The notes beneath the pieces were generated by a model. That model worked only from the letters and a program-made list of their open reading frames with translations. It was not told the origin of the DNA and did no database searches. The position numbers and the translations under genes are program-made. Source: Salegentibacter agarivorans (GTDB lineage Bacteria; Bacteroidota; Bacteroidia; Flavobacteriales; Flavobacteriaceae). From it: 64,000 nucleotides of DNA. The stretch covers positions 62,001 through 126,000 of the forward strand of contig NZ_FOOH01000003.1 of NCBI RefSeq assembly GCF_900113135.1. The letters are read 5' to 3'. Positions 1,403 through 16,350 of the stretch are shown one piece after another; positions within the stretch are counted from its first letter, which is position 1, and the number at the start of each line of letters is the position of its first letter.

Positions 1403-1461
1403 ATTTTTAATTTATTTTAAAAAATACGGGTTGAATTTGACGAAAAGCTAAGGGAGTAGTG

Positions 1462-1534
1462 ATACTGCTTTAGCATTTTTCTTATACTTTAAAAAGCATA
1501 AAAGGGTTGCAATCAGTCAAATCCTTCCCTTTAA
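1462..1534 (-). promoter_or_regulatory. SAM-II-like riboswitch upstream of metK
   Basis: Read on the minus strand, a 6-bp stem (AAAGGG at 1532-1527, CCCTTT at 1506-1501) encloses GATTTGACTGATTGCA (1523-1508). This matches the conserved GAUUU...AUUGCA core of SAM-II aptamers. The 3' part contains the hallmark GCTAAA within ATGCTAAAGCAGT (1476-1464). Its CAGT can pair with ACTG of the loop to form the required pseudoknot. An AT-rich insertion between P1 and the 3' strand resembles the long-loop variant of SAM-II. The start codon lies 59 bp downstream, so the usual tight overlap with the ribosome-binding site is not obvious. The identification comes from reading the sequence, not from a covariance search. 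Confidence 0.75.
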
Positions 1535-1545
1535 TAATTCGGTTA

Positions 1546-1788: not shown

Positions 1789-1821
1789 TTTGGTTATTAA
1801 AAATTTCTGCCCTTATCTTTG
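1789..1821 (+). promoter_or_regulatory. Promoter of the metY leader and operon
   Basis: The -33 element TTTG (1789-1792) and the -7 box TATCTTTG (1814-1821) are separated by 21 bp, fitting the Bacteroidota primary-sigma consensus TTTG-N19-21-TAnnTTTG. The predicted start near 1828 would give a leader RNA beginning about 12 nt before the first leader ORF. Confidence 0.65.
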
Positions 1822-1840
1822 TAACCAACAAAACAACGAA

Positions 1841-1912
1841 ATGTACCAGATAATTTGCAATATGATGCGTATGATGATGTGGAAAACTTCCGCAGCGCGC
1901 TCAATTGCTTAA
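1841..1912 (+). CDS. Methionine-rich leader peptide 1 (attenuator)
   Basis: A 23-codon ORF starts with ATG just after the promoter and contains the run MMRMMM (codons 8-13), a Cys at codon 6 and a Trp at codon 14. Codons 18-19 (GCAGCG, 1892-1897) are complementary to CGCTGC (1941-1946) in the 5' arm of the following terminator. A ribosome stalled on the Met codons would leave GCAGCG free to form the antiterminator. A ribosome reaching the TAA would cover it and let the terminator fold. This is the layout of ribosome-mediated attenuation. The peptide itself is expected to have no other function. Confidence 0.85.
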   Translation: MYQIICNMMRMMMWKTSAARSIA

Positions 1913-1935
1913 TTCTGAAAAGAGATAAATTGCAA

Positions 1936-1969
1936 AAAGCCGCTGCCAATCGCAGCGGCTTTTTTTTTA
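1936..1969 (+). terminator. Attenuator terminator 1
   Basis: AGCCGCTGC (1938-1946) pairs with GCAGCGGCT (1952-1960) around a 5-nt loop, followed by eight T. It lies 24 nt after the stop of leader peptide 1 and upstream of all structural genes. Confidence 0.93.
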
Positions 1970-2068: not shown

Positions 2069-2164
2069 ATGATGATTAAGGCAATAAATAAAATGATGAT
2101 GCGCACTATGATGATGTGTATGTGTATGCAACACATGAATTGCTATTGCCAAAACCGAATGTAA
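2069..2164 (+). CDS. Methionine/cysteine-rich leader peptide 2 (attenuator)
   Basis: A 31-codon ORF contains 12 Met and 4 Cys codons, including MMMCMCM at codons 14-20. An in-frame ATG at 2048 could extend it by seven residues. GCTATTGCCAA (2142-2152, spanning the last Cys codons) can pair with TTGGTAATAGC (2199-2209) in the loop and arm of the next terminator: 11 bp with one G-U. That pairing would stop the terminator from folding when a ribosome stalls upstream. No second promoter is evident, so RNA reaching this ORF has probably passed terminator 1. The two leaders would act in series. Confidence 0.85.
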   Translation: MMIKAINKMMMRTMMMCMCMQHMNCYCQNRM

Positions 2165-2191
2165 CTTAGTTTGTTTAGAGTTCAATTAAAA

Positions 2192-2228
2192 GGTCCCCTT
2201 GGTAATAGCTACTTAAGGGGACTTTTTT
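2192..2228 (+). terminator. Attenuator terminator 2
   Basis: GTCCCCTT (2193-2200) pairs with AAGGGGAC (2215-2222), followed by six T. The 14-nt loop carries the antiterminator target. It lies 29 nt after the leader 2 stop and about 100 nt before metY. Confidence 0.9.
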
Positions 2229-2324: not shown

Positions 2325-3617
2325 ATGAGTACTCAAAAATTTTCAACAAACGCATTACACGCAGGTCACGATACAAAAAAAAACGGAGGAACAAGGGCAG
2401 TACCAATTTACCAAACAACTTCTTATGTTTTTAATAATTCAGATCACGCTGCCAATCTCTTTTCCCTGGCAGAACCCGGTTATATCTACACCCGATTAAA
2501 TAATCCTACTAACGATATTTTAGAACAACGTCTTGCAGCACTGGAAGGCGGGATAGCAGCTGTAGTTACAGCTTCAGGCACAGCTGCAATTAATACCACG
2601 CTTTTAACGCTTTTAAAATCTGGAGATCATATTGTAGCATCCAGTAGTTTATATGGAGGAACTTATAATCTACTAAGTGTAACTTTACCAAGATTTGGAA
2701 TTACAACCACCTTTGTAGACCCTGAATATCCAGAAAATTTTAAAAAGGCTGCAAAAGAAAACACGCGTGCCATTTTTGTAGAATCGCTTGGAAACCCGAA
2801 GCTTGATGTTCTGGACCTTAAAGCAATTTCTGCTGAAGCCAACGCGCTCAAGGTTCCATTTATAGTGGATAATACCGTGGCTACACCTTCTTTGCTAAAA
2901 CCTATAGAGCACGGCGCCGATATTGTAATTGAATCGCTTACCAAATATATTAGCGGTAACGGAACTTCACTTGGAGGTGCCATTATAGACGCCGGTAATT
3001 TTAACTGGGCAAATGGGAAATTCCCCGAATTCACTGAACCTTCACCGGGTTATCACGGGCTAGTTTACCACGAAGCCTTAAAAGAAGCCGCATTTATTGC
3101 AAAAGTGAGAATTGAAGGGCTTCGAGATCACGGCGCGGCTTTAAGTCCGTACAATGCTTTTCAGATTTTACAGGGTTTAGAAACTCTTGAAATAAGGATA
3201 AAGCAGCATAGTCAGAATGCTTTGGAACTGGCCACCTGGCTGGAACAGCAAAAAGAAGTAAAATGGGTAAACTACCCTGGGCTGGAGAGCAGTAAATACA
3301 ATAAACTCGCTAAAGAGTATCTTTCTAAAGGGCAAAGCGGCGTAGTGACTTTTGGAGTTGAAGGAGGTTTTGAATCGGCTAAAGTTGTAGCCGATGAAAC
3401 CAAACTTTTCTCCCTCGTTGCCAATATTGGAGATACGAAATCACTAATTATTCATCCGGCAAGTACTACACACCAGCAACTGGACGAAAAACAACAGGCT
3501 ACTGCTGGAGTTACACAAGACCTTATTCGTATATCGGTTGGGCTGGAAGATGTTGAAGATTTAAAAACAGATTTAAAAGAAGCTTTTGCTAAAATTGAGA
3601 AAAAAGCTCTGGTATAA
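2325..3617 (+). CDS. metY: O-acetylhomoserine sulfhydrylase
   Basis: This PLP enzyme of the Cys/Met metabolism family (cytosol) condenses O-acetylhomoserine with sulfide to give homocysteine, so inorganic sulfur enters methionine directly. The 430-residue length fits MetY rather than the shorter MetB/MetZ (about 390). The PLP-binding lysine is K207 in SLTKYISGNG. The N-terminal YQTTSY and the NPTNDILEQRLAALEGG segment are typical. It is the first structural gene behind two tandem attenuators and is followed by metX, which makes its substrate. The sulfide comes from the sulfite reductase operon about 5 kb downstream. Confidence 0.95.
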   Translation: MSTQKFSTNALHAGHDTKKNGGTRAVPIYQTTSYVFNNSDHAANLFSLAEPGYIYTRLNNPTNDILEQRLAALEGGIAAVVTASGTAAINTTLLTLLKSGDHIVASSSLYGGTYNLLSVTLPRFGITTTFVDPEYPENFKKAAKENTRAIFVESLGNPKLDVLDLKAISAEANALKVPFIVDNTVATPSLLKPIEHGADIVIESLTKYISGNGTSLGGAIIDAGNFNWANGKFPEFTEPSPGYHGLVYHEALKEAAFIAKVRIEGLRDHGAALSPYNAFQILQGLETLEIRIKQHSQNALELATWLEQQKEVKWVNYPGLESSKYNKLAKEYLSKGQSGVVTFGVEGGFESAKVVADETKLFSLVANIGDTKSLIIHPASTTHQQLDEKQQATAGVTQDLIRISVGLEDVEDLKTDLKEAFAKIEKKALV

Positions 3618-3635: not shown

Positions 3636-3676
3636 GCAAAGGAAAAAGCAGCCAGGTTAAGTCTTTTTCCTTTTGC
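3636..3676 (+). other. Stem-loop between metY and metX
   Basis: GCAAAGGAAAAAG (3636-3648) pairs with CTTTTTCCTTTTGC (3663-3676) with one bulged base, giving a stem of about 13 bp followed by TCTTTCT. It could be an RNA-processing or partial termination site that sets the metY to metX ratio. Function is inferred only from its position. Confidence 0.6.
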
Positions 3677-3702
3677 TCTTTCTAAATCAAAAAACGAAAA
3701 AA

Positions 3703-4716
3703 ATGCTTCAGGAACTCTGTTTAAAAGATTTTGAAAATTCCGCGGGAACGGTTCAGGATATTTATTTGAGCTTTCAGCAGTTTGGGAAAAACCCAGAAAC
3801 GGCGCCGGTGGTTTTAATAAATCATGCGCTTACGGGTAACTCTCAAATTACGGGAAAGCTTGGCTGGTGGACCAAAATTGTGGGGCCTCAAAAATGTATT
3901 GATACCGAAAAATTCAGCATTCTGGCTTTTAATATTCCGGGTAATGGTTTCAACGGAAAAAAAGAACATTTAATTGAAAATTATAAAGAATTTACGCTTA
4001 GAGATATTGCAAGAATCCAGGTTTTAGCACTTCAGCAATTAAAAATTGAGAAACTTTTTGCCATAATTGGAGGCTCAATAGGCGGCGCACTCGCCTGGGA
4101 ACTAGCCGCTTTAAAACCTGATCTAGCTGAAAATATTATTCCTATTGCCACAGATTATAAAGCCACAGATTGGGTTTTGGCAAACTGTAAAGTGCAGGAG
4201 CAAATTCTTAATAACTCTAAAGAGCCGGTGAAAGATGCAAGAATGCATGCAATGACCTTTTATCGTACTCCGCAATCTTTAAGTAAGAAATTTAACAGAA
4301 CAAAAGAAGAAATAAAACCTTGCTATAAAGTAGAAGGCTGGTTGCAATATCATGGTGTTAAACTGGAAGAACGTTTTCAACTCGCTTCCTATAAATTTAT
4401 GAACCACTTGCTAACTACTATAGACATTAGCAAAGGCAGCGGTAATTACCTGGAAGTCGCAAAGAAAATTGAGGGAAATATTCATATTGTAACAGTGAAT
4501 TCTGACTGGTTTTTCCTGGCCGATGAGAATTGGGAAACTTATGTAAACCTTTCCCTGATTAAAAATAATGTAAGTATTCACGAAATAAGATCAATTCACG
4601 GGCACGATGCTTTTTTAATAGAAGCCTCGCAACTGTCCAGATTTTTAAAACCCGTATTTAAAACCAACAATATAAAAAATGAAAAAAGTGAACATCATCT
4701 TGTTTGGAATAGGTAA
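3703..4716 (+). CDS. metX: Homoserine O-acetyltransferase (alpha/beta hydrolase)
   Basis: This enzyme acetylates homoserine with acetyl-CoA to make the MetY substrate. Family features are NHALTGNSQ near the N-terminus, the nucleophile elbow GGSIGG with S125, the acid NSDWFF and the catalytic histidine in HGHDAFLIE near the C-terminus. The ATG at 3703 follows an A-rich stretch typical of this phylum. The frame extends to a TTG at 3673, but that start would lie inside the intergenic hairpin and is less likely. The 3' end overlaps hom by 38 bp, which implies translational coupling. An acetyl rather than succinyl donor is assigned from family membership and the MetY partner. Confidence 0.92.
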   Translation: MLQELCLKDFENSAGTVQDIYLSFQQFGKNPETAPVVLINHALTGNSQITGKLGWWTKIVGPQKCIDTEKFSILAFNIPGNGFNGKKEHLIENYKEFTLRDIARIQVLALQQLKIEKLFAIIGGSIGGALAWELAALKPDLAENIIPIATDYKATDWVLANCKVQEQILNNSKEPVKDARMHAMTFYRTPQSLSKKFNRTKEEIKPCYKVEGWLQYHGVKLEERFQLASYKFMNHLLTTIDISKGSGNYLEVAKKIEGNIHIVTVNSDWFFLADENWETYVNLSLIKNNVSIHEIRSIHGHDAFLIEASQLSRFLKPVFKTNNIKNEKSEHHLVWNR

Positions 4717-5752
4717 TGTAGGAAGTACCTTAATTCAGCAATTACTCGACGCAAAAAAACAATGGGAAAAGCATTCGGGGGTTTCTGTAAATATTCCTGT
4801 GATTGCCAATTCAAAAAAAGCGCTTTTTAATGCTGAAGGTATTTCAGAAAACTGGAAAAAAGATTTTAAAAAATCTTCCGAAAAGTACAAACTGGAAGAT
4901 ATCCTGGATTTCACCAAAGAAAATGACCTGGAACATCTTATAGCAATAGATGCCACGGCCAGCAAGGAATTTGTTGAAATTTATATTCGGTTAATACAAA
5001 ATGGCTTTAACCTGGTAGCCGCCAATAAAGTTGCGAACACACTTTCTGCCGATTTCTACAACAAATTACGAAAAGAATTAGATTACCACGGCAAGTATTT
5101 TTATTATGAAACCAATGTGGGCGCAGGATTGCCAATTGTACAAACCGTACAGGGCTTGCACCAGGCGGGAGAAAAGGTTACCAAAATTCGAGGGGTCTTT
5201 TCCGGTTCGCTGAGCTTCATTTTTAATACTTATTCTGAAAATAAAGAGAAGTTTTCAGATGTATTGCGAAAAGCCGGAAGATTGGGATATACCGAGCCTG
5301 ATGCCCGCGAAGATCTTTCAGGAAATGATGTGGGAAGAAAATTATTGATTCTGGCTCGTGAGCTTCAGTTAGAAAAAGAATTTCAGGAGATTAAAATTCA
5401 ATCTTTAATTCCCGAAAAATTAAACGGACAAACTTCCGCAGAAGAATTTCAGCGAAGAATAGGGGAGCTGGATGAAATATTTTTTCAGCATAAAAAGGAA
5501 CAAAACAAAGATCATGTGCTACGATACATTGGGGAAATTGAAGTAGAGAGCGCCAACCTGGAGGCAAAACTTATTTCTGAACCAAAAAGTACCGCTCTGG
5601 GTCAAATTAAAGGCGCCGATAATATTTTTGAAATTTATACCGAGTCTTATGGCGACCAGCCACTGGTAATCCAGGGAGCCGGCGCAGGAGCAGCGGTAAC
5701 CGCTCGCGGTGTAGTTAGCGATGTGCTTAGATTATCGCAAAGACTTAATTAA
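4679..5752 (+). CDS. hom: Homoserine dehydrogenase
   Basis: This reduces aspartate semialdehyde to homoserine, the precursor acetylated by MetX. The Rossmann motif GIGNVGSTLIQQL is at the N-terminus. Core motifs are AANKVANT, GAGLPIVQTVQGL and GRLGYTEPDAREDLSGNDVGRK. At 357 residues it is a short form without the C-terminal ACT domain, so allosteric threonine inhibition through such a domain is not expected. The ATG lies within the metX 3' end (38-bp overlap). It may be a methionine-branch isoenzyme of a fused aspartokinase-homoserine dehydrogenase encoded elsewhere (inference). Confidence 0.93.
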   Translation: MKKVNIILFGIGNVGSTLIQQLLDAKKQWEKHSGVSVNIPVIANSKKALFNAEGISENWKKDFKKSSEKYKLEDILDFTKENDLEHLIAIDATASKEFVEIYIRLIQNGFNLVAANKVANTLSADFYNKLRKELDYHGKYFYYETNVGAGLPIVQTVQGLHQAGEKVTKIRGVFSGSLSFIFNTYSENKEKFSDVLRKAGRLGYTEPDAREDLSGNDVGRKLLILARELQLEKEFQEIKIQSLIPEKLNGQTSAEEFQRRIGELDEIFFQHKKEQNKDHVLRYIGEIEVESANLEAKLISEPKSTALGQIKGADNIFEIYTESYGDQPLVIQGAGAGAAVTARGVVSDVLRLSQRLN

Positions 5753-5774
5753 AAATCCAACAAAACCAACAATT

Positions 5775-6938
5775 ATGCATTTTGAAACCGAAGCCATTAG
5801 AACACAAAACGAACGTACACAGTTCCAGGAGCATTCCACGCCCCTGTACCTAACGTCCAGTTATGTTTTTGATGATGCCGAAGATATGAGAGCTTCATTT
5901 TCTGAAGAAAAGGAACGCAATATTTACAGCCGATTTACCAATCCCAATACTTCAGAATTTACTGAGAAAATAGCGAAGATGGAAGGGGCAGAGGCAGGTT
6001 TTGCTTTTGCCACGGGAATGAGTGCTGTTTTTTCAAGTTTGGCGGCTCTTTTAAATAGTGGAGATCATATCATTTCGGCTAGATCGGTTTTTGGTTCTAC
6101 GCATAGTTTGTTTACCAAGTTTTTTCCAAAATGGAATATTTCGCATTCCTATTTTAATGTGAATGAAGTTGATAAAATTGAAAGTTTAATAAAGCCCGAA
6201 ACCAAAATTATTTTTGCCGAAACACCTACTAATCCAGGTGTAGATGTATTGGATTTAGAAGTTTTGGGTGAAATAGCCAAAAAGCACAATCTTATATTAA
6301 TTATAGATAATTGTTTTGCCACGCCCTGGCTTCAGAATCCTATAAAATTCGGGGCGCATTTGGTAATACATTCGGCTACAAAATTAATAGACGGTCAGGG
6401 CCGCGTTTTGGGTGGTGTAACAGTAGGAAATGCCGATTTAATAAGGGAAATATACCTGTTCTCAAGAAATACGGGACCGGCTTTGTCGCCTTTTAACGCC
6501 TGGGTACTTTCTAAAAGTTTGGAAACTTTAGCGGTACGTTTAGATAAACATTGTGAAAACGCAGAAAAAGTTGCTCTATTCCTGGAAACCGAAGCCAATG
6601 CTGAAAATGTGAAATACCCTTTTTTAAAGTCGCATCCGCAATATGAAATTGCTAAAAAACAGATGAAAAAAGGTGGGAATATTGTTTCATTTGAGATTAA
6701 AGGAGGGATTGAAGCGGGTAGAAAGTTTATAGATGCTATAAAACTTTGTTCAAGATCGGCAAATCTTGGCGATACACGCAGTATTGTTACGCATCCAGCA
6801 TCTACAACACATAGTAAATTAAGTGAAGAAGACAGGTTAGAAGCCGGGATAAAGCCAGGATTGGTAAGAGTTTCAGTAGGATTGGAACATGCAGATGATG
6901 TAATAGCAGATTTAAAACAGGCTCTAAATTCAATTTAG
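5775..6938 (+). CDS. metZ: Trans-sulfuration family PLP enzyme (MetZ/MetB-like)
   Basis: This is a second Cys/Met metabolism PLP enzyme, 387 residues, resembling O-succinylhomoserine sulfhydrylase or cystathionine gamma-synthase. The PLP lysine is K203 in HSATKLIDGQGRVLGG, a motif usual in MetZ-type proteins. The C-terminal SRSANLGDTRSIVTHPASTTHS is typical. The ATG at 5775 begins MHFETEAIRTQNERTQ; an 18-residue upstream extension overlapping hom has no family support. It is 22 bp after hom and cotranscribed. Two parallel homocysteine-forming enzymes in one operon may differ in sulfur donor (sulfide or cysteine). The exact reaction cannot be fixed from sequence. Confidence 0.85.
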   Translation: MHFETEAIRTQNERTQFQEHSTPLYLTSSYVFDDAEDMRASFSEEKERNIYSRFTNPNTSEFTEKIAKMEGAEAGFAFATGMSAVFSSLAALLNSGDHIISARSVFGSTHSLFTKFFPKWNISHSYFNVNEVDKIESLIKPETKIIFAETPTNPGVDVLDLEVLGEIAKKHNLILIIDNCFATPWLQNPIKFGAHLVIHSATKLIDGQGRVLGGVTVGNADLIREIYLFSRNTGPALSPFNAWVLSKSLETLAVRLDKHCENAEKVALFLETEANAENVKYPFLKSHPQYEIAKKQMKKGGNIVSFEIKGGIEAGRKFIDAIKLCSRSANLGDTRSIVTHPASTTHSKLSEEDRLEAGIKPGLVRVSVGLEHADDVIADLKQALNSI

Positions 6939-16161: not shown

Positions 16162-16189
16162 CTGGTTCAAGTTCATTGTTTATAACATC

Positions 16190-16296
16190 GTTATCAAGAA
16201 AGGTTGAGGGAATAGACCCGTTGAAACCTTGGCAACCCTCCTGTAATGGGAGAAGGTGCTACATTCTACTTCGCTTCTTTGGCGCAGATAGATAAC
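16190..16296 (+). promoter_or_regulatory. SAM-I (S-box) riboswitch
   Basis: P1 is formed by GTTATC (16190-16195) and GATAAC (16291-16296). Conserved S-box segments are visible: the AAGAAAGGTTGAGGGA 5' side, GACCCGTTGAAACCTTGGCA (16215-16234) and GGTGCTACATTCTAC (16255-16269), whose order and spacing fit the family. It lies 54 bp before metH. The palindrome GAAAGAATTCTTTC (16299-16312) and the following CTTCTTTTTTT may belong to the expression platform, but no clear terminator is visible, so translational control is possible. Confidence 0.93.
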
Positions 16297-16350
16297 AAGA
16301 AAGAATTCTTTCCCGCTTCTTTTTTTGATAGTGATTTTAGATAAAATTAT

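Follow-up and report, generated by a model that had tools for sequence, protein, structure and literature searches.

Genes of methionine metabolism are classic riboswitch targets. The mechanism considered here for such genes is of another, known class, ribosome-mediated transcription attenuation, as in the trp, his, thr, leu, ilv and phe attenuators, in which a short ORF with many codons for the regulated amino acid and four RNA segments (1 to 4) provide alternative antiterminator and terminator helices with a biosynthetic operon behind them. One survey gives His, Leu, Thr and Trp as attenuator specificities and Ile/Val and Phe as further ones (PMC3766115). Leader-peptide elements before amino-acid operons have been described in Flavobacteriaceae, with conserved 5′ elements before pheA and hisG; methionine is absent from the main text of that paper, and a met leader may be in its supplement (PMC9723704). 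Two ORFs in one leader are known from mgtCBR of Salmonella, where the signals are ribosome-dependent, independent and additive (PMC3641672), and in mycobacteria attenuation has been proposed, as a speculation, from Cys codons in an upstream ORF before cysteine genes (PMC4633059). A literature search, mainly of open-access papers and of their main texts, returned no Met leader-peptide attenuator, no Met/Cys specificity, no serial layout and no exchange with riboswitches.

The locus reported here lies in a window of 64,000 nucleotides from Salegentibacter agarivorans (the whole stretch of DNA that was analysed). It shares with the classic attenuators the features listed above and differs from them in that its leaders are coded for Met and Cys, belong to the Bacteroidota, stand two in series and have no Rfam match. 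The two ORFs of mgtCBR sense different signals, ATP and proline-tRNA, whereas the Salegentibacter leaders appear as two like-coded attenuators with terminators of their own (PMC3641672); the mycobacterial Cys-rich ORFs, unlike these leaders, are actinobacterial and have no Met code (PMC4633059). With a probability of roughly 0.85, we read the locus as a pair of ribosome-mediated transcription attenuators that act one after the other on a single transcript ahead of a met operon, and whose inputs would be charged tRNA-Met and, probably, charged tRNA-Cys. The features are collected in Table 1.

Table 1. Leader features and neighbouring elements, in window positions
Feature	Position	Strand	Description and evidence
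SAM-II riboswitch	1460-1536	-	Rfam scan of the window; before metK
-7 promoter box	1815-1822	+	TATCTTTG (TAnnTTTG); 27 nt before leader 1
Leader 1 ORF	1841-1912	+	MYQIICNMMRMMMWKTSAARSIA, then stop; kept in 15/15 Salegentibacter genomes examined and in other genera
Leader 1 segment 1	1857-1861	+	GCAAT; pairs with 1904-1908; 93.9% of cells paired in 23 sequences
Leader 1 segment 2	1892-1908	+	GCAGCG with 1941-1946 (CGCTGC); ATTGC with 1857-1861
Leader 1 intrinsic terminator (segments 3, 4)	1934-1964	+	Two scans; 4/13 pairs doubly changed in 23 sequences
Leader 2 ORF	2069-2164	+	MMIKAINKMMMRTMMMCMCMQHMNCYCQNRM, then stop; 31 codons, 12 Met, 4 Cys
Leader 2 segment 1	2080-2086	+	GGCAATA; pairs with TATTGCC 2144-2150; minimum-energy fold
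Leader 2 segment 2	2142-2152	+	GCTATTGCCAA; antiterminator 5′ arm; covariation in 32 sequences
Leader 2 segment 3	2199-2209	+	TTGGTAATAGC; overlaps terminator 5′ arm; covariation and permutation
Leader 2 intrinsic terminator	2191-2228	+	Segment 4 at about 2215-2222, then T-run; fold and covariation
metY	2325-3617	+	First gene of the controlled operon; TIGR01326, 635.5 bits against a cutoff of 495.1
metX-like, homoserine dehydrogenase-like and O-succinylhomoserine sulfhydrylase (metB/metZ)-like genes	3673-6938	+	NCBIfam matches below curated cutoffs
SAM-I riboswitch	16188-16298	+	Rfam scan of the window; before genes presumed metH-like

On the plus strand the order is leader 1 with its terminator, leader 2 with its terminator, metY, and the metX-like, homoserine dehydrogenase-like and metB/metZ-like genes, followed by an Rrf2 regulator and sulfate-assimilation genes. 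A biosynthetic operon for the leaders' amino acid thus stands directly behind them, metY matching above its cutoff and the other genes below theirs; TIGR01326 is O-acetylhomoserine aminocarboxypropyltransferase/cysteine synthase, and on this assignment the metY product makes homocysteine or cysteine. The metK gene, which a SAM-II riboswitch precedes, is on the minus strand and divergent from leader 1, so neither terminator is the end of a preceding gene on the same strand. No SAM riboswitch or T-box and none of the known Rfam leader families (Trp, His, Leu, Thr, Phe) reached the gathering score within 1800-2330, where the best leader scores were 21.9 bits for Phe_leader (gathering 55), 21.8 for Thr_leader (55) and 18.3 for Trp_leader (41), and a known riboswitch or Rfam leader at this site was therefore rejected. 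Over the whole window the Rfam scan gave only the two SAM elements of Table 1 and one tRNA. The genes behind SAM-I are presumably metH-like (they were named from the sequence) and, with SAM-II at metK in the same window, three kinds of RNA sensor would serve one pathway. Each of the two terminators is followed by a copy of a dispersed repeat, GTCATTTCC...GGCGGAAATCCA (1981-2010 and 2232-2266), with similar stretches elsewhere in the genome.

Leader 2 had been described in an initial annotation as a Met- and Cys-rich ORF followed by a terminator, and both the translation and the fold agree with that description. The ORF may start at ATG 2069, at ATG 2072 or, in a longer version, at the in-frame ATG 2048. 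Against the codon background of the 37 window ORFs of at least 250 aa (Met 2.09%, Cys 0.59%), the presence in 30 codons of at least 11 further Met has a p of about 1e-11 and that of at least 4 Cys a p of about 3e-5, both as values for a single ORF. The 11-bp antiterminator proposed by the annotation is likewise found, all 11 positions being able to pair, one of them as G-U. The 2:3 pairing was right in that anatomy, which had missed the partner of segment 2 towards the start of the ORF; this segment 1, by pairing with segment 2, completes a design of the trp type: the ORF holds segment 1 in its early part and segment 2 towards its end, and the terminator holds segment 3 in its 5′ arm and loop and segment 4 in its 3′ arm. 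The RNA folds better than shuffled sequences (z -2.99; an equally good fold in 2 of 200 shuffles), and the terminator is part of its fold. A simple terminator scan of the window, restricted to loops of 3-8, listed the terminator of leader 1 and not that of leader 2, which a separate terminator finder also missed in the window and in several relatives; the leader calls rest on the models R1 and R2 and on the ORFs, and not on the terminator finder.

Compensatory changes in relatives had been set beforehand as the test of the 11-bp pairing, and they are present: across 32 sequences 95.6% of the cells of the antiterminator are paired and 7 of the 11 pairs are changed on both sides, as high a value being reached in 0 of 500 shuffles. 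The helix reads GCTATTGCC:GGTAATAGC in the window, CGTATTACC:GGTAATACG in locus L142 and GGTATTACC:GGTAATACC in L140. In the terminator core (3:4) 7 of 8 pairs are changed on both sides, with the qualification that the core slid by one column scores nearly the same on covariation (0.326 vs 0.332); in one locus (L032) the second terminator is weak. Without recourse to the alignment, 0 of 20000 permutations were as strong as the own-species 2:3 pairing and 7 of 20000 as the own-species 1:2 pairing, in 15 of the 32 rows picked by hand as representatives, with 17 dropped. These representatives were permuted because many rows are near-identical, for which reason a row-by-row test that the own pairing be the best did not hold throughout (2:3, 3 of 32 rows; 1:2, 4 of 32).

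Leader 1 follows the same segment plan and folds better than shuffles to a greater degree than leader 2 (z -5.14). Its antiterminator is paired in 99.3% of cells, with 2 of 6 pairs doubly changed (23 of 500 shuffles have as many) and a covariation score reached by none of 500 shuffles. In its 1:2 helix, 1 of 5 pairs is doubly changed, a number that 469 of 500 shuffles equal, and the covariation score is above all 500.

The leader 2 ORF looks translated, to judge from the conservation of its frame: in 11 Salegentibacter sequences, one of them that of the window, all 15 gap runs inside the ORF zone have a length divisible by three, compared with 14 of 34 in the flank before it and 1 of 20 in the flank after it, the runs being counted per sequence so that several stem from one shared event. 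At its end the RNA is kept while the frame differs. Segment 2 is read as CYCQ in the window and in L009 and as AIAKK in L030, and the constraint therefore acts on the RNA. Codons 25 and 27 (2141-2143 and 2147-2149), two of the four Cys codons that the annotation had correctly counted, overlap the 5′ arm of the antiterminator and, being part of this differently read RNA segment, look dictated by base pairing.

Upstream of segment 2 the picture is one of codon placement. The sensing zone was taken to comprise all codons lying 13 nt or more ahead of segment 2, a limit derived from an assumed ribosome footprint. Among the 1310 zone codons of 62 distinct leader-2 peptides, from 69 rows, 29.5% are Met and 11.1% Cys (29.2% and 11.3% over the 69 rows), figures that keep in a few rows with a misplaced boundary (L190, L212, L188 and L206 by inspection) and some ORFs with long N-terminal extensions; in leader 1 the zone holds 35.3% Met and 12.7% Cys (68 rows, one of which, L147, was misread as empty). 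In the leader-2 peptides of relatives both amino acids are most frequent some 50 to 16 nt ahead of segment 2 and become scarcer at the boundary, with the exceptions of Met just past it (0.36 of peptides) and Cys inside segment 2. The sensor codons are thus so placed that a ribosome stalled on them leaves segment 2 free and one at the stop codon covers it.

From this arrangement the following mechanism is proposed for each attenuator. RNA polymerase would first make the short Met/Cys-rich ORF and then the intrinsic terminator. When Met (and Cys) is plentiful, the ribosome would reach the stop codon and cover segment 2, which lets the terminator 3:4 form; a shortage of charged tRNA-Met or tRNA-Cys would stall it on the Met/Cys run, where it covers or has outrun segment 1, and the free segment 2 would pair with segment 3 before segment 4 is made, letting the polymerase read on. 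If the ORF were left untranslated, 1:2 would form first and termination would ensue. In folding at equilibrium with a blocked ribosome footprint of 30 nt, the 2:3 helix of leader 2 is possible with the ribosome at codons 2-21 (0.97), reduced at codons 22-23 and gone from codon 24, and a ribosome that stalls towards the end of the run, at codons 14-20, has already left segment 1 uncovered. In the RNA made before segment 4 and free of ribosomes, the probabilities of 2:3 and 1:2 at equilibrium are 0.97 vs 0.00 in leader 2 and 0.68 vs 0.00 in leader 1. For the full RNA, 2:3 never formed at equilibrium whatever the ribosome position, as 3:4 excludes it; equilibrium folding was thus rejected as proof of the switch, which it does not reproduce by itself, and the mechanism would need a co-transcriptional order of folding. 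A methionine leader is also a paradox, since a lack of Met should starve initiation too: Met starvation would probably limit initiation on the leaders themselves, which speaks against the mechanism, and the long Met runs and the second leader might offset this loss.

It is important to distinguish whether the attenuators sense methionine alone, the Cys codons being tolerated neighbours or a by-product of RNA pairing, or cysteine as well. The annotation had proposed double sensing. From the blocked-footprint folding, Cys codons 17 and 19 of leader 2, in the zone, can sense, while codons 25 and 27, in segment 2, cannot, because stalling there would prevent the antiterminator, and the proposal holds for the first pair only. 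The reading with methionine alone draws on this second pair and on the variability of the first: the number of zone Cys codons runs from 0 to 2 within Salegentibacter, 6 of 69 leader-2 rows have none while 65 of 69 have at least 4 zone Met, and at least 2 Cys in the 19 zone codons of the window leader alone give only a single-ORF p of 6e-3. On the other side, zone Cys stands at 11.1% in leader 2, and likewise at 12.7% in leader 1, against the background of 0.59%, at least one zone Cys is found in 57 of the 62 distinct leader-2 peptides, and the family of the first enzyme of the operon includes a cysteine synthase activity. We therefore regard the sensing of methionine alone as rather unlikely and lean towards the sensing of Cys as well as Met, which the variation within Salegentibacter leaves probable rather than established.

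The hairpins might instead control translation or RNA stability, or insulate the operon from the divergent metK promoter. This is quite improbable: transcription termination is indeed a prediction from the sequence here, but each terminator has a T-run at its end, and the metY start, about 95 nt downstream, is untouched by the alternative helices.

A single transcript through both attenuators is suggested by the promoter signals. The flavobacterial -7 box is TAnnTTTG (PMC9723704), and such a box lies at most 70 nt before leader 1 in 49 of 68 loci. Of 39 loci with tandem leaders, 28 have it ahead of leader 1 and a single one has it between the two (1.1 expected from shuffles), which supports a single -7 box serving the whole transcript of leaders and operon and bears out the placement of leader 2 in series after the first attenuator that had been claimed for it. 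Full expression would then need read-through at both terminators, and the two fractions would multiply, lowering basal expression and making the response steeper. The annotation had left a choice between multiplied control and a two-input gate; since both leaders carry Met and Cys codons across relatives, the sequences do not assign a separate input to each leader and are better matched by a single combined Met/Cys signal that is multiplied in series.

Both leader ORFs precede metY in 15 of 15 Salegentibacter genomes examined (the window MetY is 95-99% identical to that of 7 of 10 Salegentibacter loci compared and 85-88% to the other 3) and are found in loci of other genera. Two sets of metY loci were compared. 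A set of 80, ranked by likeness to the window MetY and so favouring leaders, divided into loci with both leaders (39), leader 2 alone (13), leader 1 alone (3), SAM-I (24) and neither leaders nor SAM-I (1); a set of 90, from 171 genomes with a match, divided in the same order into 8, 0, 2, 73 and 7. Leaders 1 and 2 are about 3.3 kb apart in seven genomes (G329, G572, G602, G639, G679, G708 and G716), a spacing that, against the 2.5-kb flank, may explain some of the 13 loci with leader 2 only. Among the seven, the gene behind leader 1 was read in five and is TonB-dependent receptor-like in all of these (one checked, with a Plug domain, in L141); these Flavobacteriaceae loci, with leader 2 about 3.3 kb on, are L141, L256, L258, L259 and L260.

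On these counts it may be asked whether leader 2 is a redundant or non-functional duplicate in decay, with leader 1 alone regulating. Leader 1 occurs alone in 5 of 170 metY loci and also in L138, L145 and L147, which with L043 and L096 have it without leader 2 before metY (in L148 before a metX-like gene), and the leader-1 model matches leader 2 in L184 (2112-2263, E 2.5e-8) and L030 (3077-3229, E 2.7e-7), as duplication would have it and as hints that the tandem leaders arose in this way. However, the antiterminator and terminator of leader 2 covary, its ORF frame is kept, and 13 of 80 metY loci have leader 2 with no leader 1 inside the 2.5-kb flank, so that a decaying leader 2 is very improbable. 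Just as remote is an action of the ORF peptides in trans, with a Met/Cys content that serves the peptide itself, for instance in binding metal; for this there are the kept frames and the published precedent of peTrpL (PMC7298713), but against it stand the C-terminal parts in different frames over one kept RNA segment (L009, L030), the free variation of order and number of Met/Cys codons across leader-2 peptides and the covariation of the alternative helices.

Two attenuators in series remaining the preferred reading, their distribution can be set beside that of SAM-I, which binds SAM and, unlike the leaders, needs no ORF. In the 170 metY loci combined, SAM-I, called by a profile of our own built from 32 Rfam matches, occupies the same place before metY in 97, leaders are present in 65, both together in 0, and 8 have neither; some species may be in both sets, and the loci within the 97 and the 65 do not count as independent events. 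That a different sensor for sulfur amino acids takes this position in the 97 speaks for the attenuator reading. Among the 8, L185 and L076 carry SAM-II directly before metY, a third kind of sensor there, and L027 (G021) has metY at a contig start and its leaders on another contig. On a MetY tree of 108 rows the distribution of leaders versus SAM-I needs at least 4 changes, swaps being counted without direction, and was never as low in shuffles; for groups against all others, well-supported branches force at least 3. Such an exchange before one orthologous gene, repeated within one family, amounts to a natural experiment on metabolite versus charged-tRNA sensing, and serial attenuators, if true, would be a simple RNA-only way to sharpen a response. 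We put at even odds the wider proposal of a doubly checked serial sensor, in which two complete Met+Cys attenuators gate the operon multiplicatively and the device has repeatedly been exchanged with SAM-I before the same gene, flavobacteria switching between sensing SAM and charged tRNA. Before a metX-like gene SAM-I does occur in series with leader 1: in L129 (G156, oriented about 1501-1950) a leader-1 attenuator comes first and SAM-I second, an arrangement that makes this locus a candidate for a two-ligand gate responding to charged tRNA and SAM.

Among 345 genomes drawn from the phylum, Flavobacteriaceae included, the 21 genomes with R1 matches and the 15 with R2 matches all belong to Flavobacteriaceae. 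Counting leader 1 by R1 at E 0.01, which 280 of 397 genomes pass, was rejected: the opposite strand of the leader 1 terminator itself scores 5.8e-5, so most matches at that level must be generic terminators. With strong matches only, leader 1 (R1, at most 3.4e-10) is found in 31 of 397 genomes and leader 2 (R2, 1e-6) in 22 of 397.

Further leader-like arrangements occur at other genes. In L135 (G313) leader 1 and then a second short ORF with a terminator, to which R2 gave no match at E 1e-6, stand before a metB/metZ-like gene and not before metY. In Flavobacterium loci (L197:5390-5528, L207:5330-5469, L211:5359-5501, L195, L192 and L210), further leader-like ORFs with terminators, MNLKVNKMFCAISVKTEAGVSIA and ...NKMFTVALICAYVC, follow a homoserine dehydrogenase-like ORF and are in turn followed by a small ORF.
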